From the NCBI GenBank assembly GCA_016934955.1, contig JAFGRY010000010.1, positions 62,001 to 126,000 on the forward strand: a DNA stretch of 64,000 nt, written 5' to 3'. Below the pieces are notes generated by a model. The model had not been told where the DNA came from. It did no database searches and saw only the letters and a list, made by a program, of their open reading frames with translations. The stretch is from a bacterium (GTDB taxonomy: Bacteria > Zhuqueibacterota > QNDG01 > JAGLOF01). Below, in pieces: positions 57,585 to 64,000 of this stretch. The position numbers were made by a program, and so were the translations under genes. Numbering within the stretch: position 1 is the first letter of the stretch; each line of letters begins with the position of its first letter.

Positions 57585-58871
57585 TCAGGTCCGTTTGCCG
57601 CTGTTGACCAGCCAGCCTTTGATTTTCTTCAGGGGGTAGGCGACAAAGCCGTCGATGATCAGGGACGGCCGCACCAGCGGCGCCAGCAGCAGCAGGTTCA
57701 CCATCATGTCCCAGACGATCCGTTTATGGGTGGGCGGACATCCGGCGATGACGATCTTCCTGCGACAGCTGACAGTCGTGGATGCCCGGGCGCAGTCGCC
57801 GATCAGCACCACGATCCGGTCCTCTATGTTCTCCGTCACTTTGCCGACGAGCACGGTGAGGCGGGGAAAACGCTTCAGCAGCTTCGGCTTGCGGTCCCTG
57901 ATCATGTGCAGCCAGTCCAAAAGGATTCCCTGACAGCCGCCCGTGCAGTAGGGCGTCCCGGAAACGATCCGGAAGTTGGACGGGAACCGGTCCACCGGAT
58001 AAAATCCGAAATCGAGATCCTTGACAATGGCGGCCGCCCGTTCCCGGGGATAATCCCCGGCAACCTCGATCTCTGAAAAGGAGGTGGGGCCGTATCCCCG
58101 GTCCATCGCTTCTTTAATGTGTTCGATCTTGAAGGGATCGAGACCGATGAGCCGGGCGCAGACCATGTCGTGGGCCACCGCGTTGGTCGAGACCGCGATC
58201 AGTCCGAAATCGACGCCTCCCTGGGTCATCTGGTTGCCCCCGTAAGAGAACCTGATGCCGTCGGTGACGATCAGATCGGGATTGGCCGCCTCCAGGATGT
58301 CCACGATCTTCTGCGGCAGCCGGTAATCGTGGAAGAGCATGCGCTCCCGGCTGTCCACCGTACCGATATTCAGCTTCAATGCCCCGGTATAGGCGTGGGC
58401 GAGCACATTGGTTTTCAATTTGGGAACGAAAATGAGAAAATCCCTGTCGGCCATCGCAGCCGTGAGGGTGAGATGTTTGTGCAGCCGGCCCTTTTCCAGG
58501 GTCACCACCTTCTGAGGATGCTCCTCCATGGCCCGCATGCGGACTCCCAGTTTCTTCAGCCGGCGGTAGCCGGCCCAGCGGTAGCCGCCGCCCGTTGTTA
58601 TCCCGAGACCCGACGCTTCCGAGATATCGATCCGCTCCACATCGTTCCCCGTTTCCCGGACCAGCCTGATGACCCCCTCGACCACCTCCGGCCGGGTGAA
58701 CCCGTCCGTGGCCACCCGGGGATGGGCCATGACCAGGTTGGGTTTGATGACGACTTTTCCGTAAGGGGGACGCGCCGGAGTCACATGGTCCAGCGCCGTT
58801 TTCAGCACCGAATGGATCGCCGCGGAATCGTAGGTATCACAGGCACCGAGATAGACCGGGTATGTCTTCAT
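57585..58871 (-). CDS. DUF362 domain-containing protein
   Basis: A 428-residue protein with the DUF362 core: KVVIKPNLVMAHPRVATDGF at the start, DISEASGLGITTGGGYRW, and FVPKLKTNVLAHAYTGALK. It also has ISVSTNAVAHD-like IAVSTNAVAHDMVCARLIGL. Several Cys near the C-terminus (YCTGGCQG, VLIGDCARAS) could bind a metal or cluster but do not form a clear ferredoxin motif. The function of DUF362 proteins is unsettled. Two dehydrogenase genes follow 3 and about 950 bases downstream in the same operon. Confidence 0.85.
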   Translation of the reverse strand: MKTYPVYLGACDTYDSAAIHSVLKTALDHVTPARPPYGKVVIKPNLVMAHPRVATDGFTRPEVVEGVIRLVRETGNDVERIDISEASGLGITTGGGYRWAGYRRLKKLGVRMRAMEEHPQKVVTLEKGRLHKHLTLTAAMADRDFLIFVPKLKTNVLAHAYTGALKLNIGTVDSRERMLFHDYRLPQKIVDILEAANPDLIVTDGIRFSYGGNQMTQGGVDFGLIAVSTNAVAHDMVCARLIGLDPFKIEHIKEAMDRGYGPTSFSEIEVAGDYPRERAAAIVKDLDFGFYPVDRFPSNFRIVSGTPYCTGGCQGILLDWLHMIRDRKPKLLKRFPRLTVLVGKVTENIEDRIVVLIGDCARASTTVSCRRKIVIAGCPPTHKRIVWDMMVNLLLLAPLVRPSLIIDGFVAYPLKKIKGWLVNSGKRT

Positions 58872-59051
58872 GATAACCTTGCCTCAGATTGTGGAAGGGG
58901 AATTGCTTCAAGATAAAAATTATGGTAACAATTGCAAGAGATTTAAACGGCCCCCCTCCGCAGTGCCGCCTTTGAAACGGGCAGGGGACCGCTGCGGGCC
59001 AGGGGGTTCCAGGCCGTGGGCGATATTTTGTTGTCTCTTTTCATATTTTTC

Positions 59052-59080
59052 TTGACTTATGTATGCAGTTTTTGTATGTT
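59052..59080 (+). promoter_or_regulatory. hisLp: Sigma-70-type promoter of the his operon
   Basis: TTGACT (59052-59057), exactly 17 bases, TATGTT (59075-59080). Transcription would start near 59087, about 27 bases before the first leader ATG. The promoter faces the divergent DUF362 gene, and the 180 bases between it and that gene hold nothing else recognised. Confidence 0.75.
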
Positions 59081-59113
59081 GTTCCACGGCAAAAAACGAG
59101 ACCAGGTAATACA

Positions 59114-59182
59114 ATGAGCGGAATGTATTCAACAATTTTCGATATCGATCATCATCACCGTGATTCGTTCATGCACCGGTGA
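59114..59182 (+). CDS. hisL1: His leader peptide 1 (22 residues)
   Basis: An ATG-TGA frame encoding MSGMYSTIFDIDHHHRDSFMHR. Three adjacent His codons (59150-59158) and a fourth near the end place four His codons in 22. It has an AGG-type ribosome site (ACCAGG at about 59100). A perfect terminator follows 24 bases later. In his operons, ribosome stalling at His codons under starvation disrupts terminator folding. The pairing ACCGGT (59175-59180) with GCCGGT (59209-59214) would give an antiterminator. Too short for ordinary gene finding. Confidence 0.82.
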   Translation: MSGMYSTIFDIDHHHRDSFMHR

Positions 59183-59206
59183 CCTGTGATATATAGCTGT
59201 TTCCAA

Positions 59207-59235
59207 GGGCCGGTAACCGCACCGGCCCTTTTTTT
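59207..59235 (+). terminator. His attenuator terminator 1
   Basis: GGGCCGGT (59207-59214), loop AACCGC, ACCGGCCC (59221-59228), then seven T (59229-59235). A perfect 8-bp stem placed between the two leader peptides. Confidence 0.9.
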
Positions 59236-59250
59236 ATTCAGGAACGATTT

Positions 59251-59340
59251 ATGACCAGATGCATCTCAATCTTCGCCGTCGCCGGCACCAGTCATGGCCA
59301 TCATCATACCGAAGATGACCCCTGGAGGCGTACGCGTTGA
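59251..59340 (+). CDS. hisL2: His leader peptide 2 (29 residues)
   Basis: An ATG-TGA frame encoding MTRCISIFAVAGTSHGHHHT, then EDDPWRRTR. It has HGHHH (four His codons within five) at about 59293-59307, and AGGAA 7 bases before the ATG, right after the first terminator. A second terminator begins 28 bases later. GAGGCG at 59325-59330 is the exact complement of CGCCTC at 59372-59377 in that terminator, so it could form an antiterminator when a ribosome stalls at the His codons. This makes a second complete attenuator unit. Confidence 0.82.
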   Translation: MTRCISIFAVAGTSHGHHHTEDDPWRRTR

Positions 59341-59367
59341 TACCGGCAGAATGACCCACTCGGACAA

Positions 59368-59395
59368 GGCCCGCCTCAGGCGGGCCTTTTTTTTT
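59368..59395 (+). terminator. His attenuator terminator 2
   Basis: GGCCCGCC (59368-59375), loop TCA, GGCGGGCC (59379-59386), then nine T (59387-59395). Two A bases before it lengthen the stem. The hisG ribosome site (GGAG) follows 4 bases after the T-run. Confidence 0.92.
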
Positions 59396-59413
59396 CACAT
59401 GGAGAAAGAATCG

Positions 59414-60277
59414 ATGAAAACGAACCCGTTGAAACTGGCCGTACAGAACAAGGGGCGGCTCAGCGAAAAATCACTGCATCTCATCAGATCCTGCGGCATC
59501 GATGTGGAAGCGGATCCGCGGCTGCTGATATCGGCGGCGGCAAATTTTCCCCTGGAACTGCTCTTCCTCAGAGATGACGACATTCCCGATTATGTCGCCG
59601 ACGGTGTCGCAGACGCCGGTATCGTCGGCAGGAATGAAGTCGATGAGCGGGGCGCCGATGTCGAGCTCGTGAAAGACCTGAAATTCTGCGGCTGCCGCCT
59701 CTCTCTGGCGGTCCCCGAAGACCGTCCGTTTCAGTCGGTGGCCGACCTGGATGGCACCCGGATCGCCACCTCCTATCCCCGGATTCTGCGGAACGCGCTT
59801 GCCGGATACAACATTTCGGCCGACATCCACGTCCTCGCCGGCTCGGTCGAGATCGCGCCGGCCATCGGACTGACCGACGCGGTCTTCGATATCGTCGGCA
59901 GCGGCGGCACGCTCCGCCGTAACGGGCTGAAAGAGGCGGCCGTGCTCTATCGCTCATCGGCGGTGCTCATCGAACACAGGCATCTCGATGAGGAAAAGAG
60001 CGCCCTTCTCAGCCGTCTCCTGCTGCGCATAGAGGCGGTGATGCGGGCGGCTGACACCAAATACATACTTCTCAACGCCCCGGACAGGGCCCTGGATGAG
60101 ATTGTCCGGCTCATTCCGGGTATGAAAAGCCCCACCGTCACGCCTCTGGCCGCTCCCGGCTGGAGCTCACTGCAGTCGGTGGTCCCGGAAGACGCGTTCT
60201 GGCATGTCATCGAACAGCTGAAAGCCATGGGTGCCCAGGGCATCCTGGTGGTGCCGATTGAAAAAATGGTCTACTAA
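59414..60277 (+). CDS. hisG: ATP phosphoribosyltransferase, long form
   Basis: The ATG at 59414 (GGAGA 9-13 bases upstream) gives 287 residues starting MKTNPLKLAVQNKGRLSEKS, the usual long-form length. An in-frame ATG at 59294 would begin inside the second leader and is rejected. The catalytic half has YVADGVADAGIVGRNEV and DIVGSGGTLRRNGLKE. The C-terminal ACT-like regulatory domain (about 215-287) binds histidine for feedback inhibition. It makes the first committed step, PRPP plus ATP to phosphoribosyl-ATP. Transcription passes two attenuators. Confidence 0.96.
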   Translation: MKTNPLKLAVQNKGRLSEKSLHLIRSCGIDVEADPRLLISAAANFPLELLFLRDDDIPDYVADGVADAGIVGRNEVDERGADVELVKDLKFCGCRLSLAVPEDRPFQSVADLDGTRIATSYPRILRNALAGYNISADIHVLAGSVEIAPAIGLTDAVFDIVGSGGTLRRNGLKEAAVLYRSSAVLIEHRHLDEEKSALLSRLLLRIEAVMRAADTKYILLNAPDRALDEIVRLIPGMKSPTVTPLAAPGWSSLQSVVPEDAFWHVIEQLKAMGAQGILVVPIEKMVY

Positions 60278-60291
60278 TGAAGGAGATGTCA

Positions 60292-61593
60292 ATGATCCAA
60301 TGGTATCGATGCGGTTCGGCCCGGGAAGCGGCCGCGCTGCTGCAGCGGAGCGGGGAGCCCGGTTCCGCGTGTCAGGAAACGGTAGCCCGGGTTTTTCAGG
60401 AAGTCGGAGCGCGGGGTGACGCGGCCCTGCGGGATCTGAGTGAAGCCTTCGACTCCGTCCGTCCTCGGGAGATCCGCGTGTCACGCGCGGAGATGGAGGC
60501 AGCCGCGGCCCGACTGCCGGAACCGGTGCGGCGGGCGGTGCTGGAGGCCTCCCGCACTATTGAACGGTTTCACCGGTCGCGCAGCGGGCGGACCCCGGCC
60601 GTGGAAACCGCTCCGGGAGTCACCTGCTGGAAGCGGACCGTACCGCTGGAGCGGGCGGGGCTCTATGTTCCCGGCGGCACTGCCCCGCTCTTCTCCAGTG
60701 TGCTCATGCTGGCGGTTCCCGCCCGCATCGCCGGCTGCAGACAGATATCCCTCTGCACTCCGCCGGGACCGGACGGCGGGGTGAACCCCGCGATCCTCTA
60801 TGCGGCCGGGATCAGCGGCATTCAGGATGTATACCGTATCGGCGGCGCCCAGGCAATCGCGGCCATGTGCCTCGGCACTGAAACCGTACCGAAAGCGGAC
60901 AAACTCTTCGGCCCCGGCAACCGCTATGTCACCGCGGCAAAAATAGCGGCGTTCTCCCGGGGAACCGCCATCGATATGCCGGCCGGACCCTCTGAAGTGA
61001 TGGTGATCGCAGACGAAACCGCGGTACCCTCGTTTGTCGCGGCCGACTTGCTCAGTCAGGCCGAACACGACCGGGAGAGTCAGGCGGTCCTGGTGACAAC
61101 GGCGCCGGCGGTGCTCGAACAGACCCGCCGGGAGCTGGCAAAACAGATCTCATCCCTCGGAAGACGGGATATCATCGAATGCGCACTGCGGAACAGTATG
61201 CTGATTCTCGTGCCGGAGCGGGCCGACCTTCTCCGTGTCAGCGACCTCTACGCTCCGGAACACCTGATCATCTGCACCCATGACGCGCCGCGGCTGGCGG
61301 AACAGGTGCGGCATGCCGGTTCCGTATTTATCGGCAACTACAGTCCGGAAGCGGCGGGCGACTACTGTTCGGGCACCAATCACACGCTGCCCACCGGCGG
61401 ATACGCCCGCTCTTTCAGCGGTCTCTCGGTTGACAGTTTCTGCAAGGATATCACGTTTCAGCAGCTGTCTCCCCGCGGGCTTGCCGGGCTTGCCCGCACC
61501 ATCGATACCATGGCGAACGCCGAGGGCCTGACCGCCCATGCCCGGGCGGTCTCTATCCGCATGGAATATTCCACGGGAGGAACCGGCCTGTGA
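60292..61593 (+). CDS. hisD: Histidinol dehydrogenase
   Basis: The ATG at 60292 with AAGGAG 6 bases upstream gives 433 residues. Earlier ATGs at 60277 and 60286 lack room for the site. It has GLYVPGGTAPLFSSVLML, the metal/active-site region RIGGAQAIAAM, FGPGNRYVTAAK, DMPAGPSEVMVIAD and AEHDRESQAVLVTT, and the C-terminal region with GTNHTLPTGGYAR. A zinc enzyme that oxidises L-histidinol to histidine in two NAD steps. Its first bases lie within the end of hisG. Confidence 0.97.
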   Translation: MIQWYRCGSAREAAALLQRSGEPGSACQETVARVFQEVGARGDAALRDLSEAFDSVRPREIRVSRAEMEAAAARLPEPVRRAVLEASRTIERFHRSRSGRTPAVETAPGVTCWKRTVPLERAGLYVPGGTAPLFSSVLMLAVPARIAGCRQISLCTPPGPDGGVNPAILYAAGISGIQDVYRIGGAQAIAAMCLGTETVPKADKLFGPGNRYVTAAKIAAFSRGTAIDMPAGPSEVMVIADETAVPSFVAADLLSQAEHDRESQAVLVTTAPAVLEQTRRELAKQISSLGRRDIIECALRNSMLILVPERADLLRVSDLYAPEHLIICTHDAPRLAEQVRHAGSVFIGNYSPEAAGDYCSGTNHTLPTGGYARSFSGLSVDSFCKDITFQQLSPRGLAGLARTIDTMANAEGLTAHARAVSIRMEYSTGGTGL

Positions 61594-62666
61594 AACAGAA
61601 ATACAATCCCGACCCTGTCCTGGTGGTCCGTGAGCATCTTCGCTCGCTGGTTCCCTGCCGGCCGGCGCGAAGCGGCCGGCATGAGCGCGGTTCCATTCTG
61701 CTCGACGCCAATGAAAACGCCTTCGGCACACCCGGCGGATTGTGCTACAATCGCTACCCTGACCCGTCGGCCGACGAGCTGAGGACCGCGATCGCAGGCA
61801 TGCTCGGCCTCGATGCCTCCGCCGTCATCGCCGGCAACGGCAGCGATGAAATTATCGATCTGCTCTTCAGGGCCTGCTGTGAACCGGGGAAAGACGAGGC
61901 CGCGGTGATCACGCCCTCATATGGCATGTACGGCATTCTCGCCGCGATTCACGGTGCAGGAACGGTTGAGATCCCCCTTGACCGCCGTTTTGACCTGGAC
62001 CTGGACAGGACGCTCGATCTGCTGGCCCGGAGGACCCGTCTGAAGCTGCTTTTCCTCTGTTCCCCGAATAATCCAACCGGGAACCTGCTCTCCGCCGATG
62101 CGGTGACGGCCCTTGCCGCCGCGTTTCAGGGCATCACCGTCGTGGATGAGGCATACATCGACTTCGCATCCGGCCCGGGCCTGCTCGGGGCCCTGGGCGC
62201 CCATTCACGGCTCTTTCTCATCAGGACCCTGTCCAAGGCCTGGGGCCTGGCCGGTATTCGGGTTGGGTTCGGCATCGGCGATCCCCGCCTGGTTCGTATT
62301 CTCAACCGCATCAGACTGCCCTACAACCTCGGAACACCCGCCCAGACGGCGGCACTGCATGCGATGCACCACGCGGACGACAAAGAACGGATGATCGGCG
62401 CCATCATCGCGGAGCGGAACCGGCTCGCCGCCGCGCTGCAACGATCGGCTTCCGTCCGGCATGTCTATCCATCGGATGCCAATTTCATCCTCATCAGGAC
62501 AGGTGACGCCGACGCCCTGCACGCCTACCTGCGCGGCCGGGGCATCGTTGTCCGGAACCGCTCGCGGCTGCCCGGCTGCGGGAACTGTCTGCGGATCAGC
62601 GTCGGCACACCTGCCGAGAACGATGCGCTGCTGCGATGTCTGAATGACTGGGAGGATCTGCCATGA
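61590..62666 (+). CDS. hisC: Histidinol-phosphate aminotransferase
   Basis: The GTG at 61590 overlaps the hisD stop, with GGGAGG upstream. A 358-residue fold type I aminotransferase, with LDANENAFGTPGG and AGNGSDEIIDLLFRACC, then CSPNNPTGN and VVDEAYIDF. The PLP lysine is K216 in TLSKAWGLAGIRVG, and the C-terminal Arg is in CLRISVGTPAEN. It converts imidazole-acetol phosphate to histidinol phosphate. It overlaps hisB at the downstream end. Confidence 0.96.
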   Translation: MKQKYNPDPVLVVREHLRSLVPCRPARSGRHERGSILLDANENAFGTPGGLCYNRYPDPSADELRTAIAGMLGLDASAVIAGNGSDEIIDLLFRACCEPGKDEAAVITPSYGMYGILAAIHGAGTVEIPLDRRFDLDLDRTLDLLARRTRLKLLFLCSPNNPTGNLLSADAVTALAAAFQGITVVDEAYIDFASGPGLLGALGAHSRLFLIRTLSKAWGLAGIRVGFGIGDPRLVRILNRIRLPYNLGTPAQTAALHAMHHADDKERMIGAIIAERNRLAAALQRSASVRHVYPSDANFILIRTGDADALHAYLRGRGIVVRNRSRLPGCGNCLRISVGTPAENDALLRCLNDWEDLP

Positions 62667-63763
62667 AGAAAGCGCTCTTTCTCGATCGGGACGGGACCAT
62701 CATCGTTGAACCGCCTGAAGACCGGCAGGTTGACAGTCTCGAAAAACTCCGGTTCCTGCCCGGCGTCATCCTCGCCCTGTATGCGCTCAGGCATGAAACA
62801 CCCTTCACCCTGGTTATGGTGTCGAATCAGGACGGCCTCGGCACCGCGGCCTTTCCGGAAGCGTCCTTTTCAGCGCCCCATGAAAAAATGCTCGACATTC
62901 TCAAAGGCGAAGGGATCGATTTTGATGACATCCTCATCGATCCTTCGCTTCCGCGGGAGGGATCGCCCAACCGGAAACCCGGCATCGGCATGATGGAACG
63001 GTACCGCGGCGGCGACTACGACATGGAGCACTCCTGGGTGATCGGCGACCGGGAGACCGATGTTCAGTTTGCCCGGAATCTCGGCTGCAACGCCATGCTG
63101 ATTGGAACGTCCCGCTCCGCTGAAGCGCCGGATTTCCACGCTCCCGACTGGCCGACCGCCGCGCGGTTTCTGCTCGGCCGCAGCAGGACGGTGACCCTGC
63201 GCCGGAAAACCGCTGAAACGGATATTCAGCTTGTCCTCAATCCCGACGGGCGGGGAGAGACGGCGGTGAGCACCGGCATCGGATTTTTCGATCATATGCT
63301 GGAACAGCTGGGGTTTCACTCGGGATGTGATCTGCAGCTGACAGCGACCGGCGACCTGCACGTCGATGAACACCATACGATAGAGGATACAGCCCTGGTC
63401 CTGGGAGAAGCCTTCCGCCGCAGCCTCACTGAATACGGGTCAGTCGGGCGGTACGGTTTTTACCTGCCCATGGATGAGAGCAGCTGCCGCGCGGCCATCG
63501 ACCTCTCGGGCAGACCCTGCCTCGTCTGGCACGCGCCCTTCCGCCGGGAAACAATCGGAGGAATTCCCGTTGAGATGTTCAGGCACTTTTTCAAATCATT
63601 CTCGGACGCCTGTCGCTGCACGCTTCATATTCATGCCGAGGGAGAAAACGGGCACCATATAATAGAAAGTATTTTCAAAGCCGCGGCCCGCTCCCTGCGG
63701 ACCGCTCTTTCCCGAAATCCCGGCGGAGGAATCCCGCCCTCAACCAAAGGAGTGCTGAGCTGA
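62663..63763 (+). CDS. hisB: Bifunctional histidinol-phosphatase/imidazoleglycerol-phosphate dehydratase
   Basis: A 366-residue fused HisB. Residues about 1-165 are a HAD phosphatase with D8 and D10 in FLDRDGT, SNQDGLG and GDRETDVQFA. Residues about 175-366 are the dehydratase, with TGIGFFDHMLEQLGFHSG and HVDEHHTIEDTAL (metal-binding His). The C-terminal half has HHIIESIFKAAAR. It carries out steps 6 and 8 of histidine synthesis. The fusion is typical of Gammaproteobacteria and some Bacteroidota. It overlaps hisC by 4 bases and hisH follows directly. Confidence 0.97.
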   Translation: MKKALFLDRDGTIIVEPPEDRQVDSLEKLRFLPGVILALYALRHETPFTLVMVSNQDGLGTAAFPEASFSAPHEKMLDILKGEGIDFDDILIDPSLPREGSPNRKPGIGMMERYRGGDYDMEHSWVIGDRETDVQFARNLGCNAMLIGTSRSAEAPDFHAPDWPTAARFLLGRSRTVTLRRKTAETDIQLVLNPDGRGETAVSTGIGFFDHMLEQLGFHSGCDLQLTATGDLHVDEHHTIEDTALVLGEAFRRSLTEYGSVGRYGFYLPMDESSCRAAIDLSGRPCLVWHAPFRRETIGGIPVEMFRHFFKSFSDACRCTLHIHAEGENGHHIIESIFKAAARSLRTALSRNPGGGIPPSTKGVLS

Positions 63764-64000
63764 ATGAACATTGTCATTATCGAATACAATGGCGGCAACA
63801 CCCGCTCGGTGCAGTTCGCTCTGCAGCGCATCGGGTTCCCGAAGACGGTGATCAGTGATGATCCGACCGTGATTCTGCAGGCGGACAGAGTGATCTTTCC
63901 GGGAGTTGGTGAGGCCTCATCCGCCATGCGGCGGCTGCGCTCCCTCCGCATTGACCGGATTATTCCAGACCTGAAACAGCCGGTGCTGGGCATCTGCCTC
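63764..64000 (+). CDS. hisH: Imidazole glycerol phosphate synthase glutaminase subunit (partial)
   Basis: The first 79 residues are present, the rest lies beyond the window. The start MNIVIIEYNGGNTRSVQFAL and the motif RVIFPGVGEASSAM are typical of HisH. The frame reaches PVLGICL, just before the catalytic Cys pair's conserved G. HisH releases ammonia from glutamine for HisF. The ATG begins right after the hisB stop, giving the enteric gene order hisGDCBH. Confidence 0.93.
   Translation, partial: MNIVIIEYNGGNTRSVQFALQRIGFPKTVISDDPTVILQADRVIFPGVGEASSAMRRLRSLRIDRIIPDLKQPVLGICL

Follow-up and report, generated by a model that had tools for sequence, protein, structure and literature searches.

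Single attenuators of the his operon are known from enteric bacteria (Rfam RF00514, His_leader). For amino-acid attenuation in general, the available part of one account has a single unit as the rule (PMC3641672). The 5′ leader of a his operon in the DNA analysed here (a stretch of 64 kb, taken as a whole and called the window) raises the question of whether two attenuators for the same amino acid can stand one behind the other in a single leader and, if so, whether both of them respond.

Results

Two attenuator-like units between a promoter-like site and hisG

Read 5′ to 3′ on the + strand, the leader begins with a sigma-70-like promoter, TTGACT-17-TATGTT (59052-59080). The preliminary description of the locus called this promoter good; the site is present, but it is weak as sole evidence, as a scan of 58500-60400 (1.9 kb, both strands) returned 2 promoter-like sites against 1.0 expected, with the site at 59052 being the sole one on the + strand. 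The first leader peptide, MSGMYSTIFDIDHHHRDSFMHR (59114-59182, + strand), has 22 codons including 4 for histidine (codons 13-15 at 59150-59158, and codon 21 at 59174-59176); AGG lies 7 nt 5′ of its ATG, and there is a further in-frame ATG at 59123. The candidate antiterminator arm of this unit (unit 1; 59175-59185, + strand) could pair through ACCGGU (59175-59180) with 59209-59214 and through CCU (59183-59185) with 59206-59208. Putative intrinsic terminator 1 (59205-59235, + strand) has a perfect stem of 10 pairs (59205-59230) with a 6-nt loop (−18.6 kcal/mol) and a run of seven T (59229-59235), the first two of which are within the stem.

A Shine-Dalgarno-like AGGAA (59240-59244, + strand), found by direct reading 6 nt before the ATG, introduces the second leader peptide, MTRCISIFAVAGTSHGHHHTEDDPWRRTR (59251-59340, + strand), where histidine is encoded by codons 15 (59293-59295) and 17-19 (59299-59307). 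The antiterminator arm of unit 2, GAGGCG (59325-59330, + strand), is the exact complement of CGCCTC (59372-59377), and putative intrinsic terminator 2 (59366-59395, + strand) again has a perfect stem of 10 pairs (59366-59388; 3-nt loop, −19.5 kcal/mol), with nine T (59387-59395), the first two within the stem. The gap from leader stop to stem is 22 nt in unit 1 and 25 nt in unit 2, both inside the range of the units of relatives. A letter-by-letter recheck agreed with the preliminary description on the four His in 22 codons of leader 1, on both perfect terminators with their seven and nine T, on the AGGAA site of leader 2 and on the exact GAGGCG/CGCCTC pairing.

Both leaders are short frames rich in His codons, matching the product of the downstream his operon, and by sequence an intrinsic terminator lies between each leader frame and hisG. 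Read in this way, the DNA between the promoter-like site and hisG holds two consecutive His attenuator-like units. The tail of leader 1 (59150-59182) can also pair with the ribosome site of leader 2 (59236-59262; −14.5 kcal/mol, 29 of 1,000 shuffles as strong), a pairing that might link the two leaders.

The leader is followed on the + strand by hisG (59414-60277), which is over the cut-offs of TIGR00070 and TIGR03455 and Bacteroidota-like in a tree (see below), and by hisD, hisC, a bifunctional hisB and the start of hisH (60277-64000), all open frames, with hisD, hisC and hisB each over cut-off. The names of the putative hisH and, beyond the window, of the putative hisA, hisF and hisIE are read from translations of open frames. 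The divergent neighbour on the minus strand (57585-58871) is a 428-aa frame with one NCBIfam match, at 52 bits against a 500-bit cut-off.

We defined a unit as a frame of at most 45 codons with at least 3 His in 8 codons, whose stop lies 5-60 nt before a perfect stem with a T run. Under these fixed rules the two strands of the 64-kb window together contain exactly two units, those described above, both on the + strand. Dinucleotide shuffles of 59052-59413 produced two units in 0 of 2,000 and one unit in 2 of 2,000 cases, and six one-strand shuffles of the whole window produced 0, 0, 1, 2, 0 and 0 units. The folding energy of the whole leader is unremarkable (z −1.54; 9 of 100 shuffles as low): the remarkable feature is the ordered anatomy, not the whole-leader folding energy.

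No Rfam family matched the window at its gathering cut-off. RF00514 gave no match in the whole genome at E 0.001, with controls matching in E. coli and C. glutamicum (over the cut-off in one), and it was not one of the 33 Rfam matches that the leader gave at E values up to 10. Among those 33, Thr_leader (E 0.45) and Trp_leader (E 0.48) were placed over unit 2, far below their cut-offs. Among 12 loci from the survey described below (11 unit-bearing loci and L050), none had an Rfam match at gathering. As to other attenuator candidates in this genome, no terminator was found upstream of its one chorismate-binding (trpE-like) gene, where one short frame with two Trp lies within the gene's own open frame region, and the genome gave no TPP_enzyme_N match.

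Predicted folding depends on the position of the ribosome

With a ribosome set on each codon in turn, we folded the RNA downstream of it as far as the loop of the terminator, at equilibrium rather than co-transcriptionally, assuming that the ribosome reaches 14 nt beyond the A site. When it stood on His codons 13-15 of leader 1, the left arm of terminator 1 was paired upstream at 0.97 in silico, and the value dropped to 0.28-0.38 from codon 18 to the stop; at the fourth His (codon 21) it was 0.35, placing this codon too late to hold the predicted switch. For unit 2 the computed arm pairing was 0.75 while the ribosome occupied the His codons (15 and 17-19); it fell to 0.62 at codon 22 and to 0.28-0.46 over codons 23-27, and was 0.11-0.14 between codon 28 and the stop. 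In these models the folding of both units depends on the position of the ribosome, as would be expected for an amino-acid attenuator.

With the ribosome at codon 1, the terminator arm was still paired upstream (0.78 in unit 1, 0.75 in unit 2). Equilibrium folding gave no protector hairpin that would free the terminator arm in either unit, and the untranslated leader is thus predicted to be ON. In the enteric his and trp attenuators, in contrast, a protector hairpin (1:2) frees the terminator when the leader is not translated.

The switch was defined as arm pairing at the His codon minus that at the stop, with 100 spacer shuffles per unit as control, and was computed for 94 distinct units (the 2 in the window and 92 from 92 other hisG upstream regions, out of 239 regions). 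The mean switch over the 94 units, the window's two included, was 0.55 versus 0.13 in shuffles; it was at least 0.3 in 80 units, and in 56 of the 94 at most 5 of 100 shuffles were as large. Pairing in unit 2 went from 0.80 to 0.11, with 0 of 100 spacer shuffles giving as large a change, and in unit 1 from 0.87 to 0.30, with 11 of 100 as large. The modelled switch of unit 2 is therefore clear and well supported against shuffles, and the evidence for a real switch in unit 1 is suggestive. Single units of relatives also fail the shuffle test (L007, 43 of 100; L023, 81 of 100), so that failure is no proof of absence. Of the earlier claim that a competing pairing is visible at each terminator, alternative folding upholds the part on unit 2 clearly (0 of 100), but the switch of unit 1 is matched by 11 of 100 shuffles.

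Single His units are common upstream of hisG

HisG was matched in 51 of 59 genomes of relatives (own genome included), 17 of 23 further genomes of the phylum, 120 of 138 genomes of the phylum of G082 (the Bacteroidota sample, with the Chitinophagales locus L036) and 58 of 99 genomes of the phylum of G086 (the Acidobacteriota sample, with the Acidobacteriota locus L049); 59 named HisG loci were added. L093 (no HisG locus) and L107 (HisG not placed by local search) were excluded beforehand, and the set had no upstream DNA for 10 of the 120 matches in the Bacteroidota sample or, in the Acidobacteriota sample, for 11 of its 61 match rows. Removal of 6 stretches under 150 nt and 11 duplicates from 296 upstream stretches left 279 regions.

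At least one unit was present in 94 of the 279 regions, window included (93 of the 278 others), and in 1 of 279 when the opposite strand of the same stretches was searched. Units were found in 38 of 66 regions of the own phylum (window included), 39 of 109 of the Bacteroidota sample, 9 of 47 of the Acidobacteriota sample and 8 of 57 named loci. Two units were found in the window only (1 of 279 regions): each of the 93 other unit-bearing regions has one, and the two-unit arrangement occurs in one genome only among those surveyed. The same-family genome G001 (L007) has a single unit, before a hisG of another lineage than the window's.

Looser rules, applied to 239 regions, gave five others with two terminator-like hairpins behind frames with some His. 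We rejected them as double units, since in L014 and L059 a single leader precedes both hairpins, and since L005, L052 and L125 each have one frame whose His codons are no more than scattered; in our judgement none of the five holds a second full unit.

L210, from the Bacteroidota sample, has two successive His-rich short frames and one terminator, 169-52 nt before the end of the upstream sequence read. L153, L154, L156 and L162, from the Acidobacteriota sample, have near-identical leaders with the C-terminal SVLAA[VM]SGVAK, and their terminators lie some 410-440 nt upstream of where hisG is estimated to begin; something else may lie between terminator and hisG at these loci. In both surveyed genomes (G009 and G004) of one genus of the order, a tRNA-Asn gene in the direction of hisG separates the his promoter-like site from the His leader (L013, 2594-2669; L090, 866-941).

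Parts of the leader look resident and the genes imported

The HisG of the window is 59% identical to a Chitinophagales HisG and 31% identical to the HisG of the same-family genome. We built a quick tree of 144 HisG, leaving out rows with fewer than about 230 aligned residues. In it, 42 of 43 other own-phylum rows group with 17 Acidobacteriota-sample rows. The window HisG is separated from these by fully supported branches and lies in an 85-row clade that also takes in every Bacteroidota-sample row used, the whole set of named rows (Bacteroidota, some Acidobacteriota, Chloroflexota and Patescibacteria) and one own-phylum row, L002. Within this clade it falls in a mostly Bacteroidota subgroup of 58 rows (10 of them Acidobacteriota), with a support of 94, just under the tool's mark of 95, and on a long branch of its own (1.05), a kind of placement that the tool calls unsure. 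On identity and tree, the hisG of the window is best read as a Bacteroidota-like xenologue. The own-phylum genome G045 (L002) likewise has a Bacteroidota-like HisG; no His-rich frame was found in the 597 nt upstream of its hisG.

The promoter-like site TTGACT-17-TATGTT has identical hexamers and spacing in the best site of the single His leader of G001 (L007), and the best site is TTGAC[AT]-17 in 9 of 9 single-unit regions of the order, although the sites compared were chosen as best matches, which favours agreement. An arm of terminator 2 carries GCCCGCC, and the motif GCCCRCC occurs in 14 of 37 units from the own phylum and in 1 of 8 from the Acidobacteriota sample, while it is absent from the 39 Bacteroidota units and the 8 named ones. 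Several Bacteroidota terminators likewise start AAGGCTT.CC. The shared promoter and GCCCRCC motif, taken with the Bacteroidota-like HisG, suggest that parts of the leader are resident and the genes imported. The second unit may be a doubled resident element or may have arrived together with the genes.

A model of nine units of the order gave unit 2 14.6 bits, a weak signal given that terminator-keeping shuffles average 12.5 bits and 4 of 100 reach 14.6; the terminator half of unit 1 received no score or 0.0 bits from three models of relatives' units. No recent duplication of the units was seen: the best local alignment between unit 1 and unit 2 is a 13-nt terminator tail, with 8 of 300 shuffles scoring as high. 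Kinship of leader 1 with the leader of L017 was also discarded (82% over 34 nt, E 0.065, not significant), as was a 28-nt DNA match to terminator 2 in G004, which lies on a contig other than that genome's HisG matches and was taken as an unrelated terminator.

Discussion

We think it more probable than not that a single his operon is preceded by two ribosome-mediated transcription attenuators in series, both reading the charging of histidyl-tRNA. If histidine is plentiful, the ribosome would pass the His codons to the leader stop and cover the antiterminator arm; terminator 1 would then form and end most transcripts, and those escaping it would run into the second leader and its terminator. 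Under histidine shortage, the ribosome would stall on the run of His codons, the antiterminator would form in each unit and RNA polymerase would reach hisG. The leaks through the two terminators would multiply to set the basal read-through, both gates would have to be open for full expression, and an untranslated leader would be ON. This scheme supposes translation of both leaders, a halt of RNA polymerase at either terminator and gates that multiply; gates in series might then give a lower basal level or a sharper response. A fuller reading, which we put forward tentatively and with slightly more doubt than belief, is that of two full attenuators for the same amino acid, with multiplying gates and ON when untranslated, in which a resident promoter and leader drive an imported Bacteroidota-like operon, the regulatory element having been doubled or two having been joined.

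The main doubt is whether unit 1 still responds. If only unit 2 regulated, unit 1 would be a decaying or leaky remnant whose terminator lowers expression by a fixed factor. Such a remnant would fit the 11 of 100 shuffles that match the switch of unit 1, the failure of its terminator half to fit any of the three relatives' models, the presence of one unit in each of the 93 other unit-bearing regions, and the terminator 2 motif, which recurs in the own phylum (14 of 37 units) but in none of the 39 units from Bacteroidota. However, the leader 1 frame is intact, with three His codons in a row, a spacing in the range of the relatives' units and a perfect terminator with seven T; some single units of relatives (L007 and L023, above) fail the shuffle test too; and a non-responding terminator before a needed operon would presumably be costly. 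We consider a loss of response in unit 1 rather unlikely.

The two terminators could also act on different transcripts, if a promoter between the units fed unit 2. The sequence TGATATATA at 59187-59195 could be an extended −10, and a start about 7 nt further on would place terminator 1 at the very 5′ end of the transcript, where a hairpin need not terminate; but the only + strand promoter-like site in the scan of 58500-60400 is the one at 59052, which makes this arrangement improbable. Least credible, and very improbable, is that the second His-rich frame is a chance product beside an N-terminally extended HisG (59294-60277, in another frame): the frame from the ATG at 59294 is stop-free into hisG, but, counted from the 59414 start, the match to the hisG family model sets in at residue 6, no AGG-like site is seen before 59294 whereas leader 2 has one, a perfect terminator and an antiterminator to match it come after leader 2, and shuffles make two units very unlikely (0 of 2,000).

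Two histidine attenuators in series, the reading that we prefer, have partial precedents, taken here from the accessible portions of the papers cited. The view of the preliminary description that two complete consecutive units are undescribed has to be narrowed accordingly: mgtCBR, mefA/msrD and tandem His T-boxes come close, but among the titles and abstract openings returned by searches of an open-access library, none dealt with two ribosome-mediated attenuators for one amino acid in series. Like the enteric his attenuator, the present leader has a His-codon leader peptide, a terminator and an antiterminator before a his operon (PMC9413887), but it has two such units, not one.

The mefA/msrD operon has a second transcriptional attenuator, and the pair has been called a double lock against basal expression, a logic that the scheme proposed here shares; the attenuator studied, msrDL, is ribosome-mediated, with an intrinsic terminator (PMC10314930). 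There the signal is an antibiotic, and the second attenuator is said to serve msrD alone (PMC10314930), whereas the two present units share a single leader upstream of the first gene. Of the precedents, this double lock comes closest to a pair of attenuators sharing one kind of signal. T-boxes bind tRNA directly, unlike the present units, for which the proposed sensor is a translating ribosome. Tandem His T-boxes nevertheless resemble them as two sensors for one amino acid in series; they precede transporter genes in five Enterococcus species, and a sharper response is named as a possible use of double T-boxes (PMC9413887).

In the mgtCBR leader of Salmonella, two leader ORFs are each tied to their own RNA switch; the signals are ATP and proline, a Rho-dependent terminator is possible, and the effects are independent and additive (PMC3641672), so that multiplying gates are no given here. 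Unlike in mgtCBR, both leaders here are His-rich, which points to one signal rather than two, and both terminators look intrinsic. ermB, and as is believed ermA and ermD, has two leader peptides in one regulatory region responding to one signal, as here, but that signal is an antibiotic, and for ermB the attenuation is described as translational (PMC8274638). Some rimP leaders have a second tandem terminator, the upstream one with a potential antiterminator, and so share the two terminators in one leader; the available text describes no amino-acid leader peptide for rimP (PMC2965389). A structured 5′ element before hisG, with no Rfam hit, is conserved in Flavobacteriaceae, and clues to leader peptides before amino-acid operons are given in the same source (PMC9723704).

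Units resembling His attenuators are common before hisG: 38 of 66 own-phylum regions carry them, counting the window, as do 39 of 109 regions of the Bacteroidota sample. If the leader described here does hold two units for one amino acid, amino-acid attenuators would be stackable for tighter control, like riboswitches, T-boxes and the macrolide double lock, and the locus would offer a natural test of gate multiplication. It would also be one example of regulation after a whole biosynthetic operon has given way to one from a distant lineage.
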